64,000 bases of DNA. It comes from Edaphobacter lichenicola. Lineage in GTDB: Bacteria; Acidobacteriota; Terriglobia; Terriglobales; Acidobacteriaceae. This document shows positions 30,047 through 59,341 of the stretch, piece after piece (the stretch's first letter is position 1; each line of letters opens with the position of its first letter). The translations under genes and the position numbers were made by a program. The DNA lies in the NCBI RefSeq assembly GCF_014201315.1, contig NZ_JACHDY010000007.1, forward strand, positions 124,001-188,000. The letters are read 5' to 3'. The notes beneath the pieces were generated by a model that saw only the letters and a list, made by a program, of their open reading frames with translations, was not told where the DNA came from and made no database searches.

Positions 30047-30266
30047 CAGGTATTTGACTGATTGTTCTGGCAAAACTGCTCGGCTTATTGGCATAGCCTC
30101 GCCCAGGTTCCTGGCCCACCTTGCATTCCATTGCATGTACGGGGAGAAGAGTTATGCCACAGGGTTCGAGATGAGCCCTTCCTCACAAAAAGAAAACGTA
30201 ACACGACTGTGCGCGACAGGATAATATTTAGCGAAATATTCGACATAGTTTCCTTGGGGCCTGGCG

Positions 30267-32654
30267 TTGAATGATCCGGCTGGTGCGTCTCTGCTTGAAA
30301 GATTTTCGATCTCTCTCTTAGGGGAGTTGGAGAGCGGCCCTCGTGCGCGGATTTTGTCGCTCGGCATCTCCGATCTGCTGCCGGGGTCTTCCATTCTTGT
30401 GTATCTCCTCGACAATAAAAAGTTGGCCTGGATGTTGAAGGCCGCAGTGGGCGAAGTGTCGGTCGACCGGCGCGGCATTCCATTTGATTCGGGAGGCCTT
30501 GGTGCCGTAGCAACGGAGCGCACGATTCTGCAATTCAGCGCCGAGGATTTGAGTCGAGAAGACTTTGCGCATCTTGATATTCGTCAAAGTTTTAGTTCTC
30601 TTACCTATATTCCTGTCTTACTTCAGGAAGAATTACTGGGCTGCGTTGAGATTGTTAGTTTTTCTGAGCCACCTACGGAGGCTGTGCTCGAAACCGTGGT
30701 AGAGATGACCGATAGTGCTGCGGTTGCCTTCGGCGCAGCACTGATTTATGAGTTGGAACGAAATGCTGGCCTCTCTTCCGTGCTTCGACTCACGCAACTT
30801 TACGACATTGAAAAAGTGTTCAATGCGACGCTCGAGATGCAGGAGCTGCTTCCTGTGATCTGCTCCAAGGTGCAGGATCTTGTGGGAGCAACCGTAGTCA
30901 ATTTGTGGATGGTAGATCAGGACGATCTGATGCTGATACAGCAGGCTGGCGAGGATTCGGCTGCGGGAGTGGGAGATCGCCAGGTGGCGGGTGGGGGCAT
31001 CGTTGGAGATGTCGGCGAGAACGGCGAAACCGTTTTGTTACAGGGAGACGACGATGCGTTGCAACAGCGGAATCTGCGATCGACCGCAGCGGCCAGTTCC
31101 TTGATGGCTGCACCTTTGGTGAAAGACGAGAACTTGACCGGCGTGCTCGAGGTGGTCAGCTACGACCCGGAGTTTCTCTTCAGCGATGATGATCTCTTCA
31201 CTTTGACGCAGGTGGCCGAATCGGCGGCCCAGGCGCTGCATAACTCTTCCCTGCTGCAGGCAGAACGAAAGATTGAGATTCTTCAAACACTGGTCAGCGT
31301 CAGTCAGGAGATAACCTCCACGCTGAATTTGCAGCGAGTCCTGCAGGCCATCGTGAATCAACCGCAGCTTGTGATTCCGTATGAGCGCGCGGCGATCGCT
31401 CTGGAGCAGAGAAACAGAGTTACTGTGCAGGCTATCTCGGGAGTGACGAAGCTGGATCTTTCGAACCCGGAGGTCGCGTCGCTCAACGGCCTGCTCAGTT
31501 GGGTGGCCGGATTGGAGACGGAGGTCTATGTCACGCAACATGAGGAGGAGATCAGCGATACGCGACCTGAGACGCGCGAGAAGTTTCGGCGCTACTTCGA
31601 GACGACTGGCTCGCGCAGTTTCTATGCCATCCCTCTTGGAGATGACGAAGGCACGTTGGGAATACTGTCGTTTGAGAGCTCCGATCCGAATTTTCTGACT
31701 ACGCTGCACTTTGAAATCATCAAGATTCTGGCGAGCCAGGCGACTCTTGCGTTGCGGAATGCTTCGCTCTATAAGGAAGTTCCGTTTATTGGCATACTTG
31801 AACCGCTTATCGAAAAGCGACGCCGCTTTATGGCGATTGAGAAGCGTCGCCGCGCGCTGATTTTGACGTCGTGCCTTGCGGTGTTGCTCGCTTTGATTTT
31901 GGTGCCGTTTCCGATGCGGGTTGTTGGACAGGCGCAGGTGAGCCCGGCCCAGACTCAATATGTTCACGCGGAAGAAGACAGCGTTGTGCAGAAGGTCTTC
32001 GTTCATGAGGGAGACACGGTGCTGCCCGGAACTCCGCTTCTTCAAATGACGGATTGGGGTCAGCGGGCGAGTCTTGCTGCGGCACAGGCGAAGTACAACA
32101 CGGCTATGGCACAGATGACTCGCGCCCTGATCGAAAACGATGCGACGGTTGCGGGGCAACATCAACTTGAGTCGGATTATTTGCATGGTGAAGTGACGCG
32201 GTTGAACGACAGGCTCTCTCGAACGACGGTCCATGCGGACATAGCGGGCGTTGTCGCGACCCCGCATGTCGAAGATCTTGTCGGGAAAAAACTGTCGAGC
32301 GGAGACCCGCTGGTGGAGTTGGTGAGCACAGAGAACGTGGTTGTGGATGTGGCGGTACCGGAACGGGATGTTGAACTTCTGAGGACCGGCGCACCGGCCA
32401 ATATCAAACTGGAGTCGTTCCCGACTGCAACCTTCAGCGGGACGGTTAGCGTGATCAGCCCATCGGGCAAAGCTATGGGCGACGTCCATGTCTTCTTCGC
32501 ACGAGTAGCGGTACCCAATCCGAAGGGTGATCTGAGGCCGGGAATGCAGGGTCTCGGAAAGATTCGAGTGGGAACGCGCCCGTTGGGATATGTGTTGTTT
32601 CGTGATTCGGCTCTCTGGACATGGTCCAGGCTTTGGAAGTGGTTTAGCTGGTGA
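30267..32654 (+). CDS. Triple-GAF sensor fused to a HlyD-type membrane fusion protein
   Basis: The 795-residue protein combines cytoplasmic sensing with a periplasmic adaptor. Three GAF-like domains occupy about residues 5-155, 170-325 and 335-505, the middle ones joined by a helix (ALHNSSLLQAERKIEILQTLVSVSQEI). A basic linker (EKRRRFMAIEKRRR) leads to one membrane helix (ALILTSCLAVLLALILVPF, about 530-548). The rest is a HlyD adaptor: lipoyl half VHAEEDSVVQKVFVHEGDTVLPG, a short coiled coil, second half RTTVHADIAGVVATPHVEDLVGKKL and a beta-barrel. Start TTG 30267 is uncertain. Its stop overlaps the next gene (GTGA), so the two are coupled. Similar fusions occur next to M50/HlyD proteins in Planctomycetes; their role is not established. 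Confidence 0.8.
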   Translation: MNDPAGASLLERFSISLLGELESGPRARILSLGISDLLPGSSILVYLLDNKKLAWMLKAAVGEVSVDRRGIPFDSGGLGAVATERTILQFSAEDLSREDFAHLDIRQSFSSLTYIPVLLQEELLGCVEIVSFSEPPTEAVLETVVEMTDSAAVAFGAALIYELERNAGLSSVLRLTQLYDIEKVFNATLEMQELLPVICSKVQDLVGATVVNLWMVDQDDLMLIQQAGEDSAAGVGDRQVAGGGIVGDVGENGETVLLQGDDDALQQRNLRSTAAASSLMAAPLVKDENLTGVLEVVSYDPEFLFSDDDLFTLTQVAESAAQALHNSSLLQAERKIEILQTLVSVSQEITSTLNLQRVLQAIVNQPQLVIPYERAAIALEQRNRVTVQAISGVTKLDLSNPEVASLNGLLSWVAGLETEVYVTQHEEEISDTRPETREKFRRYFETTGSRSFYAIPLGDDEGTLGILSFESSDPNFLTTLHFEIIKILASQATLALRNASLYKEVPFIGILEPLIEKRRRFMAIEKRRRALILTSCLAVLLALILVPFPMRVVGQAQVSPAQTQYVHAEEDSVVQKVFVHEGDTVLPGTPLLQMTDWGQRASLAAAQAKYNTAMAQMTRALIENDATVAGQHQLESDYLHGEVTRLNDRLSRTTVHADIAGVVATPHVEDLVGKKLSSGDPLVELVSTENVVVDVAVPERDVELLRTGAPANIKLESFPTATFSGTVSVISPSGKAMGDVHVFFARVAVPNPKGDLRPGMQGLGKIRVGTRPLGYVLFRDSALWTWSRLWKWFSW

Positions 32655-33565
32655 GGGTCGAAATGAAGCATCTCTTTGCGGTGATGATTGCGGCGTCTGT
32701 CCAGTCGATGAGTCTTGGTTGCGCTCCGAGTACAGCTCAACTACACCCCTCGCAGGGACAGGAAACGCGCACGATGCAGACGGCAAACTCTCAGCCCATG
32801 AAGAGCGTGGCGCCGCCTCACGGGCTAGTCGTTAGCGGCCCTATTACCCTGGAGCAGCAACTCGATATCGTGGCTCTTCGAGCTGGAGTGATCGTGGCAC
32901 TTCCGGCCGATGTGGACACCGTGGTGCAGAAGGGTCAGTTGATGGCGGGGCTCGATGCGCGCCAGTTGGAGGCTGATCGCAATACGGCCAGGTATAAAGT
33001 CGAGAGTCTTGAAGCGGACCTGAAGAACTGGCAGTCTGAACTGCAGGTTCGCGAGACCGATATGCATCGGGCGGAGGCGATGCATAAGGAAGGAATCACC
33101 ACCCAGGAGGCCTATGACCATAGCCGCTACGAGGTTGCCGCGAGCCAGTTTGAAGTGGAGCGGCAGCGCGGGGAGATGCTGAGCGCGAAGGCCAACCTGC
33201 AATCGATCGATCTGGAGTTGGAGAAGACAAAGTTCGTTGCGCCTTTCAAAGGGGTGGTGGCGCAACGCTATGTGCGGCTTGGCCAATATGTGACGACCGG
33301 AGATAAACTCTTTCGCGTGATGGGCGCATCGCCGCTCGAGGTGCGATTCACTCTGCCCGGGGCAGAGGCAGCTCTGCTTAAGCGGGGAGCGCTGGTGACC
33401 GTATCGCCTACGCCTGAGTTCCAGCAGACTACCGATGCGACGGTGACACACGTGAGTCCCGTCGTCGACCCTGGCAGCGGCACGATTGAGGTGACTGCCG
33501 TGTTGAAGAATCGGCTGCCGGGACTTATCCCAGGCACGGTCGCCTCGGTACGGATTGCGAGATGA
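32651..33565 (+). CDS. Periplasmic adaptor subunit (RND/HlyD type)
   Basis: The protein is 304 residues from GTG 32651 (overlapping the preceding stop) or 300 from ATG 32663, which has AGGG 6 bases upstream. A hydrophobic signal region (HLFAVMIAASVQSMSLGC) includes a Cys that could be lipidated, although the lipobox is imperfect. Domains follow the adaptor order: lipoyl half (VIVALPADVDTVVQKGQLMAGLD), helical hairpin (about 105-190), lipoyl half (KTKFVAPFKGVVAQRYVRLGQYV), beta-barrel and membrane-proximal part (THVSPVVDPGSGTIEVTAVL). No RND pump is encoded nearby, so its partner is probably the M50 fusion protein, whose start overlaps its stop. Confidence 0.85.
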   Translation: MRVEMKHLFAVMIAASVQSMSLGCAPSTAQLHPSQGQETRTMQTANSQPMKSVAPPHGLVVSGPITLEQQLDIVALRAGVIVALPADVDTVVQKGQLMAGLDARQLEADRNTARYKVESLEADLKNWQSELQVRETDMHRAEAMHKEGITTQEAYDHSRYEVAASQFEVERQRGEMLSAKANLQSIDLELEKTKFVAPFKGVVAQRYVRLGQYVTTGDKLFRVMGASPLEVRFTLPGAEAALLKRGALVTVSPTPEFQQTTDATVTHVSPVVDPGSGTIEVTAVLKNRLPGLIPGTVASVRIAR

Positions 33566-35712
33566 ATCTCGCCGAAGCATTTAATGCGGCGCTGCCCGAT
33601 CTGCCTGCACGCAGAAGCCGGACCACGTCTCCCAAACTGGATCCAGCGGTGGTGTTCCGCGAAAATATCGAGGATGGCAAGCCGATTATTGTTGCCCTCA
33701 TTCGCGGCACGGACAAGATCTACCGATTTGGCTTGGATCAGTGGCGAATTATCGAGTTGTTCGATGGAATACGCTCCTACGAAGACGTAGCCGCGGCACA
33801 TGCTGAGCTCTATAGCGTGGCCTATAGCGTCGATGATCTGAAGGAGTTTGCCGGCGGCCTGGATGACGCCGATTTCTGGTACAAGACACCGCTGGAAAAG
33901 AATATTGCGCTGCAGCAGAAGCTTGAAAGCAGCAGGCATCAACATAGCAATCGCAAGTCGAAGTGGGGTGACATCTCGCATATGCAGTTCTCTGCATGGG
34001 ATCCCGACCGATACTTCAATCGCATCTATCCCTACTCCCGCTGGCTCTACTCACGATGGTTTACCACGCTTACACTCCTTCTCTTCGGATTCATGGTGGC
34101 TTTGTTCTTCGCGAACTGGGCTCAGATTGGTCGAGATACCGTTCAGTTTTATACGTTCACGGAAAAGAGCGCATCCGATCTTGCGGAGTTCTGGATTCTA
34201 TTCTTGATACTGGGGTTCTTTCATGAGTCCGCGCACGGGCTGACGTGCAAACACTACGGAGCAGAGGTTCACGCGATGGGCTTTCATCTCATCTACCTGA
34301 CTCCCGCATTCTTCGTTGATGTGAGTGAAGCCTGGGTCTACGCGAACCGCTGGCAACGTCTGGTTACGATCATCGCCGGCATATGGGTGGAGATGATCTT
34401 CTGTGCTATTGCGACGATTGTGTGGTGGGGGACCCCTGCTGGAAGCGACGCGCATGACCTTGCTTACAAGATCATGCTGTTGACGGGCGCCGCTGTGATC
34501 GTTGTGAATATGAATCCGTTGATCAAGCTCGATGGCTACTACGCTTTCTCTGAGGTGATTGGCTTCTCGGATATCAAGGAAAAATCAACGGCGTACCTCT
34601 CAGGCCTTGTGAGGGGAAAGATCTTTCGGCTTCCCGTCGAGGTGGAGTATGTGCCCAGGCGCAGGCGGTTCGGCTACCTTCTGTATGCCATTCTCTCCGG
34701 CATTTACAGCTACAGCCTTCTCTACACCGTGATACGTTTCAGCCATAACGTCTTTCTGAAGTACAGTCCCGACTGGGCGTTCCTGCCCGCTCTGGCGCTG
34801 GCAGTGGTCATCTTTCGCTCGCGCATTCGCATCTTTCTGAGGTTCGTTCAAACCGTGTATCTGGACAAAAAAGACCGGGTTCGATCGTGGTTCACCGCTA
34901 CTCGCTTCAGTGTGGCTGCGGCTGTTCTTCTCGTTCTTTTGTTCGCACCCGTTTTGCATGAGACGGTGAGCGCCAGGTTTGTCCTGGAGCCAAGCCGGCG
35001 CGAGGTTGTGAGAACGATCGTTCCCGGCCGGGTCGCAGAGGTGCTGGTTGCTGAGGGGCAGAGCGTTGTTGCCGGGGAACCCCTGGTCAGAATGCAAAAC
35101 GCTCAGATAGATGCAGGGCGTACGAGATCACAGGAGGAGTTCGCTCTGACCGGTGTGCAACGGGTACAGGCTCAGCTGACGCAGGCTGATCTTAGCTCTG
35201 TGTCGCAGGAACATGCGCGGGCGGGAGTAGAGCGAACCATCGCACAGGAGGAGACCGAACAACTTGCCCCGAGCGCGCCGATGGCGGGAACTGTGATGAC
35301 GTCGCATCTGCGGGATCTCGCGGGCACGTACCTGGATGCCGGTGCAACGATCGCAGAGATCGGCGAGACCGACCAGATGCGGGCTCGAATGTTTGTCCTG
35401 GAATATGCTGTGCCCCGAGTGCAGTACGGCGCCAGGGTTCATCTGCTGGTGGATGGACGATTCTCACCGGCTACCACTCGCGTGGAGGATTTGCAGCCGG
35501 CACCGGAGGCTTTGGCGACCGCGCTTGTGGGGACTAAGAGCGAGAAAGAAGAAGGCATTCTGAAGTACTACGTCGCCGACGCGTTGATACCCAACGATGG
35601 CACTCTGCACGATGGGATGACTGGAACCGCAAAGATCACGGTGCAACGTCGAAGCGTCATGGGTCTTATCGCTAAAGAGGTACGGGAGTTTTTCGATCGG
35701 AAGGTTTGGTGA
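33562..35712 (+). CDS. PqqD-like / M50 site-2 protease / HlyD fusion protein
   Basis: The 716-residue membrane protein has four parts. Residues 28-115 look like a PqqD-type peptide-binding domain (VVFRENIEDGKPIIVALIRGTDKIYRFGLDQWRIIELFDG). Residues 160-480 carry about eight membrane helices with an M50 zinc-protease centre: HESAHG (HExxH) near residue 220 and NPLIKLDGYY (the third ligand motif) near 315. Residues 480-700 form a periplasmic HlyD-like barrel-sandwich (ARFVLEPSRREVVRTIVPGRVAEVLVAEGQSVVAGEPL, with a short coiled coil). The start overlaps the adaptor gene by 4 bases. Such fusions are expected to bind a leader peptide, cut it in the membrane and contact an export channel. That role is inferred from the domains. 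Confidence 0.85.
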   Translation: MNLAEAFNAALPDLPARRSRTTSPKLDPAVVFRENIEDGKPIIVALIRGTDKIYRFGLDQWRIIELFDGIRSYEDVAAAHAELYSVAYSVDDLKEFAGGLDDADFWYKTPLEKNIALQQKLESSRHQHSNRKSKWGDISHMQFSAWDPDRYFNRIYPYSRWLYSRWFTTLTLLLFGFMVALFFANWAQIGRDTVQFYTFTEKSASDLAEFWILFLILGFFHESAHGLTCKHYGAEVHAMGFHLIYLTPAFFVDVSEAWVYANRWQRLVTIIAGIWVEMIFCAIATIVWWGTPAGSDAHDLAYKIMLLTGAAVIVVNMNPLIKLDGYYAFSEVIGFSDIKEKSTAYLSGLVRGKIFRLPVEVEYVPRRRRFGYLLYAILSGIYSYSLLYTVIRFSHNVFLKYSPDWAFLPALALAVVIFRSRIRIFLRFVQTVYLDKKDRVRSWFTATRFSVAAAVLLVLLFAPVLHETVSARFVLEPSRREVVRTIVPGRVAEVLVAEGQSVVAGEPLVRMQNAQIDAGRTRSQEEFALTGVQRVQAQLTQADLSSVSQEHARAGVERTIAQEETEQLAPSAPMAGTVMTSHLRDLAGTYLDAGATIAEIGETDQMRARMFVLEYAVPRVQYGARVHLLVDGRFSPATTRVEDLQPAPEALATALVGTKSEKEEGILKYYVADALIPNDGTLHDGMTGTAKITVQRRSVMGLIAKEVREFFDRKVW

Positions 35713-35896
35713 GGGTGGGCTTAACGAGAAAGAGGAAGAGCCTTAACTCTTCCTCCTTTACGTACTTCGATAAGAGAACCAGGAACAGACTTCCAAAGAA
35801 ACATCACGGGCCTATTGGAAAAACCCAGGCGTGCAATTACATCTGGACAGAGAGGCCCAATTGGCAGATATCTGCTGCTAAAAGTCCATCGCTCTT

Positions 35897-36196
35897 TTAG
35901 ACCACTTTCTTGGAGAGCGAGATTTGCTTGGACAGGTGGGCTTGCTTGGAGAGCGAGATTTGCTTCGACAGGTGGGCTTGCTTGGAGAGCGAGATTTGCT
36001 TCGACAGGTGAGCTTGCTTGGACAGCTGGAGTTGCTTCGACAGGGAGACACCGCCAGCGACCTTCTTCGCCAACATGACACGGCTGGCAACTGGAGCGTT
36101 CGATGCCGAGACATCGGGATTTGCGCTCTTGACGGCCGGGGCAGACTTCTTGGTTGACTCGAGGTTGCTGATCAATGATTTCTTCTGGATAGCCAT
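35897..36196 (-). CDS. Lys/Ser-rich repeat peptide, candidate substrate or RiPP-like precursor
   Basis: The 99-residue product has a leader-like N-terminus (MAIQKKSLISNLESTKK) of a kind I associate with short hypothetical proteins of Terriglobia, a variable middle, then eight hexads ending in LSKQ or LSKK (SLSKQL, QLSKQA, HLSKQI and so on), finishing KVV. There is no Cys, signal peptide or membrane helix. The DNA is a 36-bp tandem repeat. GGAGG lies about 9 bases before ATG 36196. A sigma-54 promoter sits about 55 bases upstream, and the regulator gene is next. It faces the adaptor/M50 operon tail to tail. Its proposed role as substrate of that system is inference. Confidence 0.7.
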   Translation of the reverse strand: MAIQKKSLISNLESTKKSAPAVKSANPDVSASNAPVASRVMLAKKVAGGVSLSKQLQLSKQAHLSKQISLSKQAHLSKQISLSKQAHLSKQISLSKKVV

Positions 36197-36251
36197 GATG
36201 TGTTTCCTCCGAATGTCGAATCAGCTTTAGCAAGCTGTTGCCTTACATGAT

Positions 36252-36267
36252 TGCAATCCTTTTGCCA
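36252..36267 (-). promoter_or_regulatory. Sigma-54 promoter (-24/-12) of the repeat-peptide gene
   Basis: Read on the minus strand the site is TGGCAAAAGGATTGCA. The GG and GC dinucleotides have the exact spacing of the sigma-54 consensus TGGCAC-N5-TTGCW. Transcription would start about 12 bases beyond, near 36241, leaving a leader of about 45 bases before the GGAGG and ATG of the peptide gene. The neighbouring regulator is of the sigma-54-activating type. Confidence 0.75.
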
Positions 36268-36344
36268 AACGCGAAGGCAGTGCATTTCAGCCCAAAACAC
36301 CCGATTCTTGGGAGTTTTCATCTTCGGCTGATCCATGTGTCTCT

Positions 36345-36362
36345 CTCGAAGTCCCGTTCGAG
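36345..36362. promoter_or_regulatory. Candidate enhancer palindrome (upstream activating site)
   Basis: CTCGAA and TTCGAG form a perfect palindrome with a 6-base centre. It lies about 80-95 bases upstream of the sigma-54 promoter, the normal distance for an NtrC-type activator site, and just after the end of the activator gene. Binding is inferred. Confidence 0.5.
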
Positions 36363-36393
36363 GGGGCAAATTTAACCTGCCTAGGGTTAATTT

Positions 36394-37806
36394 TTAACCC
36401 GACTGGTTGATTTGGTATTTGCGACAAAGGTACTTCATCTTTTCCTTGGAGATCTGCAACAAGGTGGCCGCTCCGTTCTTGCTGCCGGCCCTGCGTAAGG
36501 CCGCCGTGAGATAGGCGACTTCGATACGGGCCAGCTCATCGTCGAGATCGAGGCCGTCCGCAGGCACCAGGATCTCGTCCTGTTTCGCCGTATTCTCCTG
36601 GATCACTTTATCCGGAAGATGCTGAACTTCAATCAGATCGCCGTCGACCATCAGGGCCAGACGCTGGGCCAGATTTTCCAGTTCCCTTACATTGCCCGGC
36701 CAGTTGCTTGTTTCGAGAACCTGCAAAGCTTCGGGCGAAAAACGCTTCTGCGGCAGATCTCCTGCCGTGCAATACATCCTGAGATAGTGGTCGAGCAGGA
36801 GAGGCACATCTCCTGTCCGCTCCCTCAAGGGCGGGAGGAAGACGGGGATGACGCAGATCCGGTAGTAGAGGTCCTCACGGAACTGACCTCTTTTTACCAT
36901 CTGGTCCAGATTGTCGTTGGTCGCTGCGATGAGCCTGAAATCTATCTTTCGCGGGCTTTTGCCGCCGATTCGCTGGACGACCCGCTCCTGAAGCACACGC
37001 AGCAGCTTGCTCTGGAGAGGCAGGCTGAGCGAGCCGATCTCGTCAAGGAATAACGTTCCGCCGTCGGCCAACTCGATCTGTCCGGGATGGACGGCGTGAG
37101 CGCCGGTGAACGATCCTTTTTCGTGGCCGAAGAGCTCGGACTCCATCAGGGTCTCGGGGAGGGCGGCGCAGTTCACGCTGATCATGGGCTGGTTGCGGCG
37201 AGGACTCAGGGAGACGATCGCGCGGGCGGCGAGTTCTTTTCCGGTGCCGCTCTCTCCGCGCAGCATCACGGTGCTGTTGCTCGCTGCTACGCGGCGGAGG
37301 ATCTCATAGACGCGCTGCATGGCTTCGCTGCCGCCGATCATCTCGCAGAAGGTGCTCTTCCGTGCAATCTCGCTGCGAAGCTGGTTTGCTTCGAGCCGCT
37401 CGCGATGGCGGGTGCCCGCCTCCAGCAGGTACTCCCGGAGTTCGGGGAAGTCTACCGGCGCGAGGAGGAACTCGTCCCCGCCTGCTTTTTTTGTGCGCTG
37501 GCGCGCGTTCCGCAGAGGGGTGCGCGAGATGGCGAGGCATAAGATCTGCGGCGCGGCGGCACGCACGGATTCGATGTAAGCAAAGACGTCGGTGCCATCG
37601 GGGACGATCGTGTCGAGATCGATGACGACGATCTCGGGGGTTTGCTCGGCGAGGCTTTGGAAGAGGGCTACTGAATCTGGTGCCATGCGGATGAAGAACG
37701 CAGGTGCCAGCTCCTGACCGATATCATGGAGGGCTGCGTCATCGCTGGTTGCAAAGAGCAACTTTAGTCCGTCATGGAGTCCTGCTGCAGTTGCAATCGA
37801 TGCCAC
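36394..37806 (-). CDS. Sigma-54-dependent response regulator (NtrC family)
   Basis: The 470-residue protein has a receiver domain (about 12-130, strand [10 protein letters not shown] with the probable phosphoacceptor Asp, though the N-terminal acidic pair is weak: ATSDDA). A sigma-54 activator AAA+ domain follows (about 155-390) with Walker A GESGTGKE, Walker [11 protein letters not shown] and arginine finger FREDLYYR. A Fis-type helix-turn-helix closes it ([31 protein letters not shown]). The loop that touches sigma-54 reads GSFTGA instead of GAFTGA. No sensor kinase adjoins. A 17-bp palindrome (GGGTTAA-TTT-TTAACCC, 36384-36400) overlaps the stop. It probably activates the peptide promoter at 36252. 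Confidence 0.9.
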
Positions 37807-37887
37807 GCACAGCCTCGGTTGGAAAGAGTTCTTTCGACATTACAGCAAAGCCGGAATTATTCGAAAGTTCTCTTATAAATGATCTGG

Positions 37888-51415: not shown

Positions 51416-52552
51416 TTAATGATGGAAAAGGCGTAAGCCAGTTCTTACTAGTCTTATGCCAAGCTCCTCGGCGGCTTCCTCAACGTCGGAACTCCTCACG
51501 GAACCACCTGGTTCGACGATTGTGGTGACACCGACCTCGCTTGCGTAGTCAACGTTATCGCGGAAGGGCAAGAATCCGTCAGAAGCCATCGTGATGGCTG
51601 TGAGTTCGCGCAGCCAGCGCTGGCGCCAGGAAGGATCGCCGAAGGATTCCACGGCATCATTCCCAAATGTTGCTGCAAACTCTCTCAGTTGGAGTGGCGT
51701 AATGAATCCTTCGGCGAACCGGATCTCCCAGTTCAGCCGATCCTGTCGCGACATCCCGTTCACCTGCCTCAACTCGTCAACCAATGGATGACGCCGCAGC
51801 CACCAAACACGAGCTTTCTGTGCTGCCAAACGAACACAGTCCACCCGATTCTGTTGGCCGGCTCCAATGCCGATGCACGTGCCATCTTTCGCAAGGGAAA
51901 CGGAATTCGACTGCGTATAACGAAGGGTCACCAAGGCAAGAAGGGCATCCGACGTAGTTGATGCCGAGAGAAGCTGGTCGGCAAAGAGCGCCTGATCGAT
52001 GGGCGTGGAGTCGCGCTGCTGGTCGAGGCGCATGCCGAGGACCTCGCGGCTTTCCCACTCCGGGGCAACATAGGCTGCATCGGCTTCGAACACTAGAAAC
52101 CGCCCATTCTTTTTTGCTGCCAGCTTGGCTAGGACCCCTGGATCAAATCCCGGCGCAACAATAGCGTCCGCGACAACCCGGCTGACAAAATCAGCGAGTT
52201 CATAATCGACTACGTCGGATACCGCGATGACGTCACCAAACGACGATTTCGGGTCGGCGTCGCGGGCACGTACATAAGCCGAAAGGAGCGTATTCTCGCA
52301 GCCTTCCGACACTCCCCATGTTTTTCGCGCGGAGGCATCGAGACGACCCGCAATCGCCACCCCAGCCGGCGATACGTGCTTAAATGACGCCGCAACCGGA
52401 ACAGCCACTGCCTCACGCGCCTCACGCACCAACTGCCATCCGTTAAGAGCATCCAGATAGTTGATAAAGGAAGGTTCGCCATTAACAACGGCTAGTGGTC
52501 GGGGGCCTTCCCCAACACGGGCAACCTGATGAGGATTCATGCCATACCGCAT
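51416..52552 (-). CDS. PurH-like AICAR transformylase domain protein
   Basis: The 378-residue protein corresponds to the C-terminal AICAR formyltransferase half of PurH; the IMP cyclohydrolase half is absent. Motifs are LRYGMNPHQ-like MRYGMNPHQ at the start, SFKHVSPAGVA (the catalytic Lys-His pair, with SPAG replacing the usual NPCG), GDVIAVSDVV, and GIGAGQQNRVDCVRLA, which matches the folate-site loop. The end (ASDGFLPFRDNVDYASEVGVTTIVEPGGSVRSSDVEEAAEELGI) is typical. ATG 52552 has AGGAG 5 bases upstream. It would formylate AICAR in purine synthesis or act on a related substrate. It lies alone between direct repeats and next to an IS110 element, so transfer is possible. Confidence 0.85.
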   Translation of the reverse strand: MRYGMNPHQVARVGEGPRPLAVVNGEPSFINYLDALNGWQLVREAREAVAVPVAASFKHVSPAGVAIAGRLDASARKTWGVSEGCENTLLSAYVRARDADPKSSFGDVIAVSDVVDYELADFVSRVVADAIVAPGFDPGVLAKLAAKKNGRFLVFEADAAYVAPEWESREVLGMRLDQQRDSTPIDQALFADQLLSASTTSDALLALVTLRYTQSNSVSLAKDGTCIGIGAGQQNRVDCVRLAAQKARVWWLRRHPLVDELRQVNGMSRQDRLNWEIRFAEGFITPLQLREFAATFGNDAVESFGDPSWRQRWLRELTAITMASDGFLPFRDNVDYASEVGVTTIVEPGGSVRSSDVEEAAEELGIRLVRTGLRLFHH

Positions 52553-52780
52553 GCGCACTCCTGAACCGATAAAAATCGATCTGGAGCACCCAGGCGTTCG
52601 ACGCGTTCCATTTTGCTTCCTGGTGGTTGTTCCCACCTTCGCCAGTCGCTTTGTTTATTTTAGCTGACATCGGTTGACTGAGTTTTGAATATAGCTTCGT
52701 ACCGATATCCCTCTCGCACCGCCATCCGCTAAGTCGCCAAGCGGCCTGTGCAGAAACAGACCGAAGTTCGTGTGTAGGCC

Positions 52781-56989: not shown

Positions 56990-59341
56990 TTATTTGGAAG
57001 GATCGGGAGCGGTGAACGGAGAGCAGCAGGGCTCCGAGGTGTGATGGAAGTTCATAAATTCCACGCGAATCCAATCTGGATCGAAGAGATTTAACTGCCC
57101 TTTGCCGTCCAGGCCCACCTGGGTGCCGTCCGACGCTGGCATGCCGGCGAGGCGGCCTGCTTTAGCCAGACGGCCGCTCTCCTTGAGCTTGGTTAGCGTG
57201 TCGTCAACAGAGTTTTCACCGATCGAGAAATGATCAAGCACGCCGAGATACATCTTGCTCATGTTCGCCGGAATGCCCGTCCCTGGGTCGGAAATCAGCA
57301 TATATTCCAGCCAGTCAGTGCTGTCGGGAGACTGCTCGCTTACCCAGTCAACCTTGCCTTTATTTCTCCCGCCCCACCAGTAAGGACGGAAGTCGAGCAA
57401 CGTGCGGTAGAACTTGTCTTCCGCATCTCGGGAGTGGACAAGAAAGCCGATGTGGATGATGTGATGGCCCATAACGTCCGGCGCCACTAACGGCTTGCTG
57501 TGAGGAGGAAGCTGCACGAACTGAACCTTGTTGCCCTCCGGATCCAGGACTTCGAACCAGTGGGAGCCGTCGGATCCTTTTTCCACCTTCTCTGGAGTCT
57601 TCCAGTTGTTGGCGGCTAGATAGCGACGAAGCTGCTCGGCATTTTCGGTGTTCCACGCGCTGTGGTCGAGGCGGTTGACGCCAGCTCCGGCCGGCAATGG
57701 CAGCACTTCGATAAACTGCGTGTCGCTCAGGGCATAACGCACGCCCAGCGGATTCTCAGGATCGGACAACTTCACTGCGCCTATGACCTCGCGGTAGAAG
57801 TGGTCGGTAGCTTCGGGATTCGAAGTGAATACGGTCAAATGCGAGAGCCCTGTAATCTTGGGCCGCTCTACCGCAAGGTACGCGCTCGCTGCGGCGTTCA
57901 GGGGCTTCAGCTCCACATGCGAGAAGACTGCCTTCTCCAACTGGCCGTCATGGTGCGAGGCAACTCCCAGGCCCACATAAAACGGCTCCCCAAAGTGCAG
58001 CTTGATCGAAGCGCCTGTCGGATGCAGCGGCTCGCCCTTCATACTCACGAATAGCGTGATCGTATCGCCACGCTTCTCCAGCCGCACGATCTTGGGAGCA
58101 GCAACGTGGTTACGGGGATCAGCCAAGCTGGCAGCGCGCGACGGTGTCGGATTGGTGTTGGGAGAGTCCGGGTCGAAAGCGATTTCCTGCGTCAAAGCGC
58201 CCTTGCCGGGTCGATACTGCAGCGCCGTGTAACCCGAGCCATGCACCGCCACATACGCTGTCGCCGAGTCAACATCCAGTGTCTGCCGGAACATTACGAC
58301 CGCCTTGCGATGCGGATCCGACTTGCCCGGCGTTGGCGCGGCAAACTCGATATCCGACGTGAGGGAGGCGTCGCCCGATACCTTCTTCCAGATCATATGG
58401 AAAGCGTCGGTCTTGTTCCAAAGATTCATCCCAGCAGATTCGATTGTGTACACGCCGCTTTTCGCATCAAACGACGCCGTGCCGGCGGGATTCGCTTTGC
58501 CAACGTCCGCTTGGTTCTTAAAGATCCCGCCCGGACCCGCCTGCACTACGAGGAATTGCTCCGAGGCCACATCTCCTAAGCCAGATGGTCCTGCGGGTGC
58601 CGGGCCAGACTGCGAAGATGCTGAACTTGTGACAGCGGTAAAGTCGCCTGTGATGCCGAACTCCTTTACTTCGACAGTACCCGCAATCTTGCCCGAGTCA
58701 CCCAGGGTTGCGGTGTAGATGAGGGTCAGCGGAGACCCGTTGTACTCGGATTGATATTGCCAGGTGACCTTATTTCCGTCGACGGTGCCCGTGACCGGGA
58801 GCTCCTTGTCTTGAGGTTTGCAGCTTCCAGTGATCTTGTTTCCGGCGGCGACCAGGTTGCATGGTTGGTCGCTTTCGTTTCCGGCGATGCTTTGATGGAT
58901 GGTCCACTGGCCCGTCACCGCGCTCACCTGCCCTGAACCGGATTGTCCAGCAGCCGCCTGCCCAGGCTGCGAAGTTGCTGAGCTTGTGACAGCAGTAAAG
59001 TCGCCTGTGATGCCGAACTCCTTTACTTCGACAGTACCCGCAATCTTGCTCGAGTCACCCAGGGTTGCGGTGTAGACGAGGGTCAGCGGAGACCCGTTGT
59101 ACTCGGATTGATATTGCCAGGTGACCTTATTTCCGTCGACGGTGCCCGTGACCGGGAGCTCCTTGTCTTGAGGTTTGCAGCTTCCAGTGATCTTGTTTCC
59201 GGCGGCGACCAGGTTGCATGGCTGGTCGCTTTCGTTTCCGGCGATGCTTTGATGGATGGTCCACTGCCCTGTGAGGTTCGGCGCTGCGTATGCAGACGAA
59301 GCTAACAGGAAAGCAGATATTGCGAGAAGTCTCTTCATCAT
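56990..59341 (-). CDS. Exported multidomain protein: duplicated beta domain, DUF1349-like domain, VOC module
   Basis: The 783-residue protein has a signal peptide (1-19), then two nearly identical beta domains of about 100 residues (about 22-125 and 141-244, each with GQWTIHQSIAGNESDQPCNL and two Cys). A lectin-like/DUF1349-type domain follows (about 260-490: TDAFHMIWKKVSGDASLTSDIEF, RKAVVMFRQTLDVDSATAYVAVHG); in Acidobacteriota this domain is often fused to PD40 propellers. The C-terminal 270 residues are a two-part VOC/glyoxalase fold (GLSHLTVFTSNPEATDHFYREVIGA and HIIHIGFLVHSRDAEDKFYRTLLDFRPYWW), with a His and a Glu in metal-ligand positions. The function is unknown; it sits in the sugar locus. 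Confidence 0.8.
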   Translation of the reverse strand: MMKRLLAISAFLLASSAYAAPNLTGQWTIHQSIAGNESDQPCNLVAAGNKITGSCKPQDKELPVTGTVDGNKVTWQYQSEYNGSPLTLVYTATLGDSSKIAGTVEVKEFGITGDFTAVTSSATSQPGQAAAGQSGSGQVSAVTGQWTIHQSIAGNESDQPCNLVAAGNKITGSCKPQDKELPVTGTVDGNKVTWQYQSEYNGSPLTLIYTATLGDSGKIAGTVEVKEFGITGDFTAVTSSASSQSGPAPAGPSGLGDVASEQFLVVQAGPGGIFKNQADVGKANPAGTASFDAKSGVYTIESAGMNLWNKTDAFHMIWKKVSGDASLTSDIEFAAPTPGKSDPHRKAVVMFRQTLDVDSATAYVAVHGSGYTALQYRPGKGALTQEIAFDPDSPNTNPTPSRAASLADPRNHVAAPKIVRLEKRGDTITLFVSMKGEPLHPTGASIKLHFGEPFYVGLGVASHHDGQLEKAVFSHVELKPLNAAASAYLAVERPKITGLSHLTVFTSNPEATDHFYREVIGAVKLSDPENPLGVRYALSDTQFIEVLPLPAGAGVNRLDHSAWNTENAEQLRRYLAANNWKTPEKVEKGSDGSHWFEVLDPEGNKVQFVQLPPHSKPLVAPDVMGHHIIHIGFLVHSRDAEDKFYRTLLDFRPYWWGGRNKGKVDWVSEQSPDSTDWLEYMLISDPGTGIPANMSKMYLGVLDHFSIGENSVDDTLTKLKESGRLAKAGRLAGMPASDGTQVGLDGKGQLNLFDPDWIRVEFMNFHHTSEPCCSPFTAPDPSK
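58612..59272 (-). repeat. Near-identical 357-bp tandem duplication inside a gene
   Basis: Bases 58612-58915 and 58969-59272 match with an offset of 357 and only about six or seven differences, so the duplication of 119 codons is recent. It keeps the frame and doubles the N-terminal beta domain. Confidence 0.9.

Follow-up and report, generated by a model that had tools for sequence, protein, structure and literature searches.

A five-gene module of Edaphobacter lichenicola appears to be an undescribed means of producing and exporting repeat peptides that change rapidly

The window analyzed here is a 64,000-nucleotide stretch of Edaphobacter lichenicola contig NZ_JACHDY010000007.1 (positions 124,001 to 188,000). 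It holds a gene for a 99-residue repeat peptide beside genes for a sigma-54 activator, a three-GAF-HlyD fusion, an HlyD-type adaptor, and an M50 metalloprotease fused to a further HlyD part. Together, these five genes look like an undescribed system that makes and exports fast-changing repeat peptides, and we found no description of the module in the literature searched (titles and abstract openings, with few subscription papers covered). We consider it probable that this is a leader-guided peptide export module switched by sigma-54, in which the leader would dock at a recognition element of the kind found in ribosomally synthesized and post-translationally modified peptide (RiPP) systems, the M50 protease would remove the leader, and the HlyD parts would help export what remains.

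The 99-residue open reading frame (ORF) is real; it begins with ATG and encodes MAIQKKSLISNLESTKKSAPAVKSANPDVSASNAPVASRVMLAKKVAGGV followed by SLSKQLQLSKQAHLSKQISLSKQAHLSKQISLSKQAHLSKQISLSKKVV. An earlier sequence-only reading of the window had described eight LSKQ hexads, encoded by 36-bp tandem repeats, behind a leader-like N-terminus. The 36-bp array was recovered by Tandem Repeats Finder (TRF), and seven of the hexads are indeed LSKQ, the eighth and final one being LSKK; their flanks alternate between AH and IS after a first LQ. The gene is present as a single copy within its own genome. Searches of the peptide against NCBIfam and Pfam gave noise-level matches only at E values of ≤1, and no family was matched. 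Eight relatives searched against NCBIfam likewise gave noise, except that two LQR-type cores weakly matched pentapeptide repeats (E values down to 1.8e-5, far under the cutoff). No RNA was found at the peptide locus by Rfam at the gathering threshold, and no signal peptide was seen, the N-terminus not being hydrophobic as judged by eye, without a signal-peptide program.

The leader of this peptide is conserved, whereas its repeat unit is swapped between lineages. We compared 46 peptides, namely that of the window and those of 45 of 79 named loci, of which 68 had at least 300 bp of flank. Next to M50, these peptides share the leader pattern M-x-[IVM]-x-KK[SN]-[LI] (L081 is two residues short before KK), with K5 and K6 in all 46, S7 in 45, and L8 in 43. 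A second block, mostly KKA, occupies residues 16 to 18, and column information drops past about residue 22 to 25, which bears out the suggestion of a leader, conserved here over residues 1 to 22. The repeat units that follow include LSKQAH/LSKQIS, LSKTVASRAV, APLVSK, LDSAKR, KPAI, LSGGKG, LRAGT, TPHARV, VAASK, VGHSPKV, NQPLLK, LAKSTN, and RVQS. When the 1,035 peptide pairs were binned by M50 identity and core 4-mer sharing was counted at ≥0.2, core 4-mers were shared by 7 of 10 pairs with M50 identity of ≥75%, by 0 of 19 at 65 to 75%, by 0 of 61 at 55 to 65%, and by 2 of 945 below 55%; leader identity averaged 46 to 65% in the bins under 75% M50 identity. Among close relatives, copy number varies behind the kept leader, as the sequence-only reading had anticipated for related strains: the window has seven LSKQ and one LSKK, L037 has six LSKQ and one LSKR, and L038 has five LSKQ. 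A later sample of 45 loci, from which 27 were removed as duplicates by a crude 100-base test, yielded peptides with this KKS leader in 7 of 18 non-duplicate loci; two of the seven genomes and three of the seven peptides had already been met in earlier sets. The other 11 loci had no KKS leader, and most were more distant or cut short.

The repeats are constrained at the protein level. Between adjacent repeats in 39 arrays, the proportion of differences was 0.553 at synonymous sites (pS) and 0.059 at nonsynonymous sites (pN), with 526 differences at third codon positions versus 112 and 52 at the other two. When this DNA was read in the five remaining frames, the ratio ranged from 0.25 to 5.3, the lowest coming from the antisense frame that shares third positions. 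These 39 arrays were picked by amino acid match, a choice that depresses pN; frame-blind picking from DNA only gave 35 arrays, all with periods divisible by 3, with pS of 0.477 and pN of 0.064 (pN/pS, 0.13). Array detection omitted 7 of the 46 peptides under the amino acid choice and 11 under the frame-blind one. The nine KPAI units of L048 differ by 24 silent and 0 replacement changes, and the arrays of L039 and L060 vary internally, with 10 and 7 replacement differences, respectively. In the window, adjacent repeats differ at 3.0 of 24.3 synonymous and 3.0 of 74.7 nonsynonymous sites; this array is young and alone would prove little. Across arrays, pN/pS is 0.11 to 0.13, so the lack of protein-level constraint that the sequence-only reading had named as counting against it is not what we find.

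A sigma-54-dependent promoter is predicted for the peptide gene from its core motif and score, in line with the earlier proposal of such a promoter. The sole exact match to the pattern TTGGCA-N6-TTGCA in the 64-kb window lies upstream of this gene. The window by itself does not give the motif significance: with one mismatch allowed, four matches were found versus 2.35 expected, and a shorter pattern gave 11 matches versus 8.77 expected. A search for the exact pattern that allowed a variable gap succeeded in just 10 of the 20 loci examined first, and the case for the promoter thus rests on a weighted score together with conservation. For this score, the core was taken as GG-N10-GC resembling TTGGCAC-N5-TTGCA, the best value within 160 nt upstream was kept, and the control consisted of 4,600 stretches drawn at random from these loci. 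Scores of ≥11.5 were found upstream of all 46 peptides versus 9.5% of controls, and scores of ≥12.5 upstream of 44 of 46 versus 1.9% of controls, with the sites lying 43 to 91 nt from the ATG. In the later sample, all seven leader peptides scored ≥12.5. The region before GAF-HlyD reached this score in 1 of 36 cases, which is no excess over the 5.5% of a 380-nt control.

The three-GAF-HlyD, HlyD, and M50 genes lie in that order on the forward strand, and the peptide and activator genes are convergent with them on the reverse strand (Table 1). The first of these proteins joins three GAF stretches to an HlyD adaptor, apparently a cytosolic sensor fused with an envelope adaptor. In the activator, a receiver-like N-terminus and a Fis-type HTH gave sub-threshold Pfam matches only. 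Of the five module proteins searched with PADLOC, the activator alone was matched, its AAA+/HTH part aligning with RtcR-type CARF-AAA-HTH models, as is expected for any activator of this kind.

Table 1. Coordinates of the module and its features in the window
Feature	Coordinates	Strand	Basis or remark
Complete five-gene module	30051..37885		Missing between htrA and lepB in genome G250
Three-GAF-HlyD fusion protein	30267..32654	+	Pfam
HlyD-type periplasmic adaptor	32651..33565	+	TIGR01730 above cutoff
RRE-M50 metalloprotease-HlyD fusion, 716 aa (RRE, predicted RiPP recognition element)	33562..35712	+	Convergent with peptide gene
Predicted RiPP recognition element, residues 20-108	33619..33885	+	AlphaFold2, Foldseek, VIA
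HExxH zinc site, residues 221-225	34222..34236	+	Unchanged in 13 aligned proteins
99-aa precursor: leader and hexad repeat core	35897..36196	-	ORF list, array finder, 45 relatives
36-bp (two-hexad) tandem array	35905..36044	-	TRF: 3.9 copies, 93% matches
Conserved leader, residues 1-22, MAIQKKSLISNLESTKKSAPAV	36131..36196	-	Column information falls after ~residue 22-25
Sigma-54 promoter-like site TTGGCAAAAGGATTGCA	36252..36268	-	55 nt from ATG
Sigma-54 activator with AAA+ domain	36394..37806	-	Pfam

The module is conserved within the Acidobacteriota. The 79 named loci were obtained through M50 alignment as the best of 345 relatives, the closest being strains of E. lichenicola with 90 to 93% M50 identity. 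GAF-HlyD lies upstream of M50 in 71 of the 79, an HlyD adaptor lies immediately upstream in 72, and of the 67 loci whose flank reached 600 bp or more, 61 have the activator downstream on the reverse strand. In two distant relatives, L114 and L115 (the latter a Candidatus Lindowbacteria metagenome-assembled genome), GAF-HlyD instead lies downstream of M50, and neither peptide nor activator was found within the available stretches. The peptide was matched in 20 of 398 genomes of the same family, with the M50 gene adjoining in 18 of those 20; matches in G104 and G081 were weak, had one internal stop each, and came from genomes without an M50 match, and they were dropped as chance. M50 relatives were found in 78 of the 398 family genomes at E values of ≤1e-100 and, at a looser cutoff of ≤1e-40, in 46 of 297 phylum genomes, so the distribution of the module is patchy.

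Judged by its M50 domain, HExxH motif, and LDG motif, the protease is assigned to the M50 site-2 family. PF02163 scored 27.7 bits versus a cutoff of 27.2, and HExxH and LDG (residues 323 to 325) are invariant in 13 of 13 aligned proteins. Its N-terminal domain is likely a RiPP recognition element (RRE). An AlphaFold2 model of the first 118 residues, built with 38 relatives, shows three strands and three helices, with a further helix at the C terminus (mean predicted local distance difference test [pLDDT] score, 82; residues 1 to 16 unreliable). The top six chains returned by Foldseek belong to three entries and are all lasso B1 proteins in complex with leader peptides (probability, 1.00 to 0.97). 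VIA-align gave Z scores of 9.8 and 9.1 for lasso B1, 8.7 for TigE, and 8.5 for PqqD, the first unrelated row being a methyltransferase at 7.7. Among the 39 M50 members, 12 matched Pfam PqqD (best, 3.3e-6) and 9 matched TIGR03859 (best, 0.0048).

The same machinery would serve at least three leader classes. In 18 of the 24 loci L092 to L115, a sigma-54 site scoring ≥13 precedes a small ORF on the expected strand. The products are MAKAKTVKKGKKLGSVKPL- or MAKKTLKKAKKLEATKPL-type peptides, which are short and end in a tail of 4 to 16 residues; repeats of the LQRG or LQRA type; or peptides with a longer leader of the KLTxxQxxxIxxATG type. The last of these, a third class, is found beside M50 in L097, L107, L110, L128, L130, and L131, four of the six having repeats (including RKAPLSVDAEA, SAKSMRA, and ALASKS); the site lies 126 nt ahead of the start in L097 and L107, a longer distance than in the KKS class. 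No convincing peptide was found for L093, L111, L114, or L115 among the 24 loci, and at L111 the contig ends. M50 similarity to the window starts at residue 1 in the KKS class, save for L089, which is cut by a contig end, and mostly at about residue 24 in the other-class loci; leader class and M50 N-terminus class thus go together. The first 16 residues of the M50 protein (33562-33609), of low confidence in the model, carry a conserved MNLxEALxAALPExP segment that is aligned in KKS-leader loci and mostly missing from those of other leader classes. Five of the loci (L096, L098, L102, L106, and L112) have two small genes downstream of M50, each with its own sigma-54 site scoring ≥13, and represent modules with two precursors.

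In genome G250, htrA and lepB are just 10 bp apart at their aligned coding ends, and similarity of the window to G250 breaks at 30050 and resumes at 37886. Because a clean 7.8-kb block is missing between these genes, we conclude that the five genes behave as a discrete unit; the empty site was seen in this one genome only, whose own module lies about 97 kb away from it, and the other two stretches examined (L137 and L138) showed no htrA. HtrA itself was rejected as a part of the module: it is near the module in L037 and L038 only (flank, ≤6 kb), and in G250 htrA adjoins lepB without the module.

We infer leader binding, cleavage, export, and an extracellular role for the peptide as follows. 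The three machinery genes are probably under a non-sigma-54 promoter of their own, and a triggered activator would allow sigma-54 to switch on the peptide gene. The KKSLIS...KKA leader may then bind the RRE-like N-terminus of the M50 protein, this intramembrane metalloprotease would cut the leader off, and the HlyD adaptors would help move the core of repeats through the envelope. This core is a low-complexity chain, usually cationic and without Cys or Trp, with a unit that is near exact per lineage and replaced between lineages. Its most likely site of action is outside the cell, where it would serve to compete with neighbors or to recognize them. Several results weigh against this account. 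No ABC, RND, or MFS energized transporter or outer-membrane channel was recognized in the module, which leaves the export route incomplete, and no immunity gene, such as would protect the producer of a bacteriocin, was recognized among its five genes. Six of the 67 loci with sufficient flank show no activator, and 7 of the 46 peptides have no clear repeat array, so the repeats are not essential. For the predicted RRE, the best Foldseek E value was 2.2e-3, with none below 0.001, and the window's own N-terminal domain matched neither the PqqD Pfam nor TIGR03859, only relatives doing so.

Alternatively, the core may stay intact as a cationic repeat chain that acts through its composition: as part of a matrix or as an agent active on membranes, it would bind to anionic polymers, namely extracellular polysaccharide, DNA, or envelopes. 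We regard this as a serious candidate that falls somewhat short of an even chance. Across the 39 arrays, K plus R make up 21% of residues and Glu accounts for 0 of 1,478, no Cys or Trp occurs in the 46 peptides, and net charge from residue 21 onward is +3 to +21. In a set of 39 repeat units that excludes the near relatives L037, L038, L039, L041, and L078 and includes five later arrays, K or R occurs in 38 and L, I, V, or M in 38. The cationic character raised in the sequence-only reading mostly holds, but it fails for two cores found later, L123 (NSPLS), which is uncharged, and L122 (LAESK), which is about neutral. Furthermore, bulk composition would not keep the unit sequence so exact.

In another reading, the peptide is a multi-copy precursor whose leader would be taken off and whose core would be cut into identical peptides of about 4 to 12 aa acting as signals or toxins. 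Many units are exact despite wide silent divergence, as in the KPAI array of L048, yet are swapped between lineages; unit length is free; and members with the KKGKKLGxVKPL leader have a single 4- to 16-residue tail of about unit size. Fungal Kex2-processed repeat proteins (KEPs) are described as repeat precursors with highly diverse repeats (PMC7329392). However, no common dipeptide or cut bond was found across the 39 units compared, and unit shuffling revealed a mild excess of KV and SK only, among many features tested, none of them general. Cleavage at the recurring K-Q bond into equal peptides, as first proposed, is not supported, since K-Q recurs as a repeat bond in the closest relatives (L037 to L039) only, and cutting of the core into units by some other means is possible. 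No second protease was recognized in the conserved module, several units contain K-P or R-P bonds, which resist trypsin-like enzymes, some arrays vary inside (e.g., L060 and L039), and 7 of the 46 cores have no clear array. We consider such a precursor possible but doubtful, and no more than tentatively would we see in the module a movable, sigma-54-switched source of lineage-specific multi-copy oligopeptides for recognition or rivalry, made without a tailoring enzyme.

A regular folded or fibrous surface protein in which the repeat gives periodic structure, a form also suggested in the sequence-only reading, appears improbable. AlphaFold2 draws residues 52 to 98 as one helix, with 10-residue blocks at pLDDT scores of 75 to 91, but that model was built from four close sequences. 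Drawing low-complexity sequence as a single helix is a frequent artefact of AlphaFold, and we did not accept this helix as structure. Moreover, repeat periods of 3 to 15 residues hardly fit one fold, and neither do the units, of which 16 of 39 contain Pro and 10 contain Gly. A cytoplasmic, nucleic-acid-binding basic protein of the histone H1 type with incidental neighbors would be consistent with a basic, low-complexity chain in which no signal peptide is seen, but the almost invariable presence of the same HlyD and M50 neighbors, the predicted RRE, and the tracking of M50 N-terminus class by leader class make it very unlikely. Finally, although slippage often makes tandem repeats and the array in the window is young, a junk ORF without protein-level function has practically no chance of being the explanation, being already contradicted by pN/pS across arrays, by frame-blind periods that are all multiples of three, and by the conservation of the leader and promoter-like site.

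Two observations concern other parts of the window. A ZMP/ZTP riboswitch at 52581-52659 on the reverse strand (41.3 bits; gathering threshold, 39) overlaps the start of an AICARFT/IMPCHase-like ORF at 51416-52636 on the same strand, called from its first GTG. A 357-bp tandem duplication at 58605-59266 (1.9 copies, 97% matches) lies inside a reverse-strand ORF at 56990-59341, the glyoxalase-like domain of which is outside the duplicated part.

Returning to the proposed leader-guided export module, it has a precursor with conserved leader and variable core and, by predicted fold, an RRE-type domain; such domains are common but not universal in RiPPs. No dedicated tailoring enzyme was recognized among the HlyD, M50, activator, and peptide genes (the rest of the genome may hold one), and for this reason we do not file the module as a RiPP system, though it would work like one. 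RiPP mining often begins from tailoring enzymes and could miss it. The M50 protein is common, yet the window peptide fits no NCBIfam or Pfam family. Dozens of natural peptides that share a leader and differ in core offer a direct test of substrate recognition and export by an adaptor-fused intramembrane protease, and the module also lets one ask why a repeat unit is kept within one lineage and replaced in the next.

The module can be set beside several known systems. In daptide biosynthesis, an RRE-dependent M50-type intramembrane peptidase (MpaP) is described as removing the leader (PMC10036551), and the module protease finds its best NCBIfam match in NF041824, a daptide model (154 bits over residues 24 to 388, far below the cutoff of 300). 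Unlike daptide clusters, the five genes include no oxidative decarboxylase, aminotransferase, or methyltransferase, and they feature a usually tandem-repeat core, a fused HlyD part, and a sigma-54-like promoter. EpeP, also an M50 protein, is thought to cleave and export epipeptide (PMC10885120); NF058609, for the YydH/LiaK/EpeP M50 proteins, scored 44 bits versus a cutoff of 225, and no radical SAM enzyme is among the five genes. The RREs of lasso-peptide B1 proteins and PqqD are closest to the modeled N-terminal domain, but they stand alone or in other fusions, whereas here the domain is fused to M50-HlyD. Microviridins are associated with ATP-grasp ligases and conserved core motifs; the module has no ATP-grasp ligase among its five genes, and its unit sequence is not conserved. 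Several cores in one bacterial precursor have been reported for microviridin (PMC5934393), and fungal Kex2-processed repeat proteins carry tandem core copies that are highly diverse between species, according to PMC7329392. The module peptide resembles the latter, and yeast mating-factor precursors, in its tandem core copies; theirs have a eukaryotic signal peptide and Kex2 cutting, whereas the module peptide shows neither and has no common cut site. It is conceivable, if rather uncertain, that the module is a bacterial counterpart of these repeat precursors of the mating-factor and Kex2 types, with an RRE-M50-HlyD protease-exporter carrying out the maturation.
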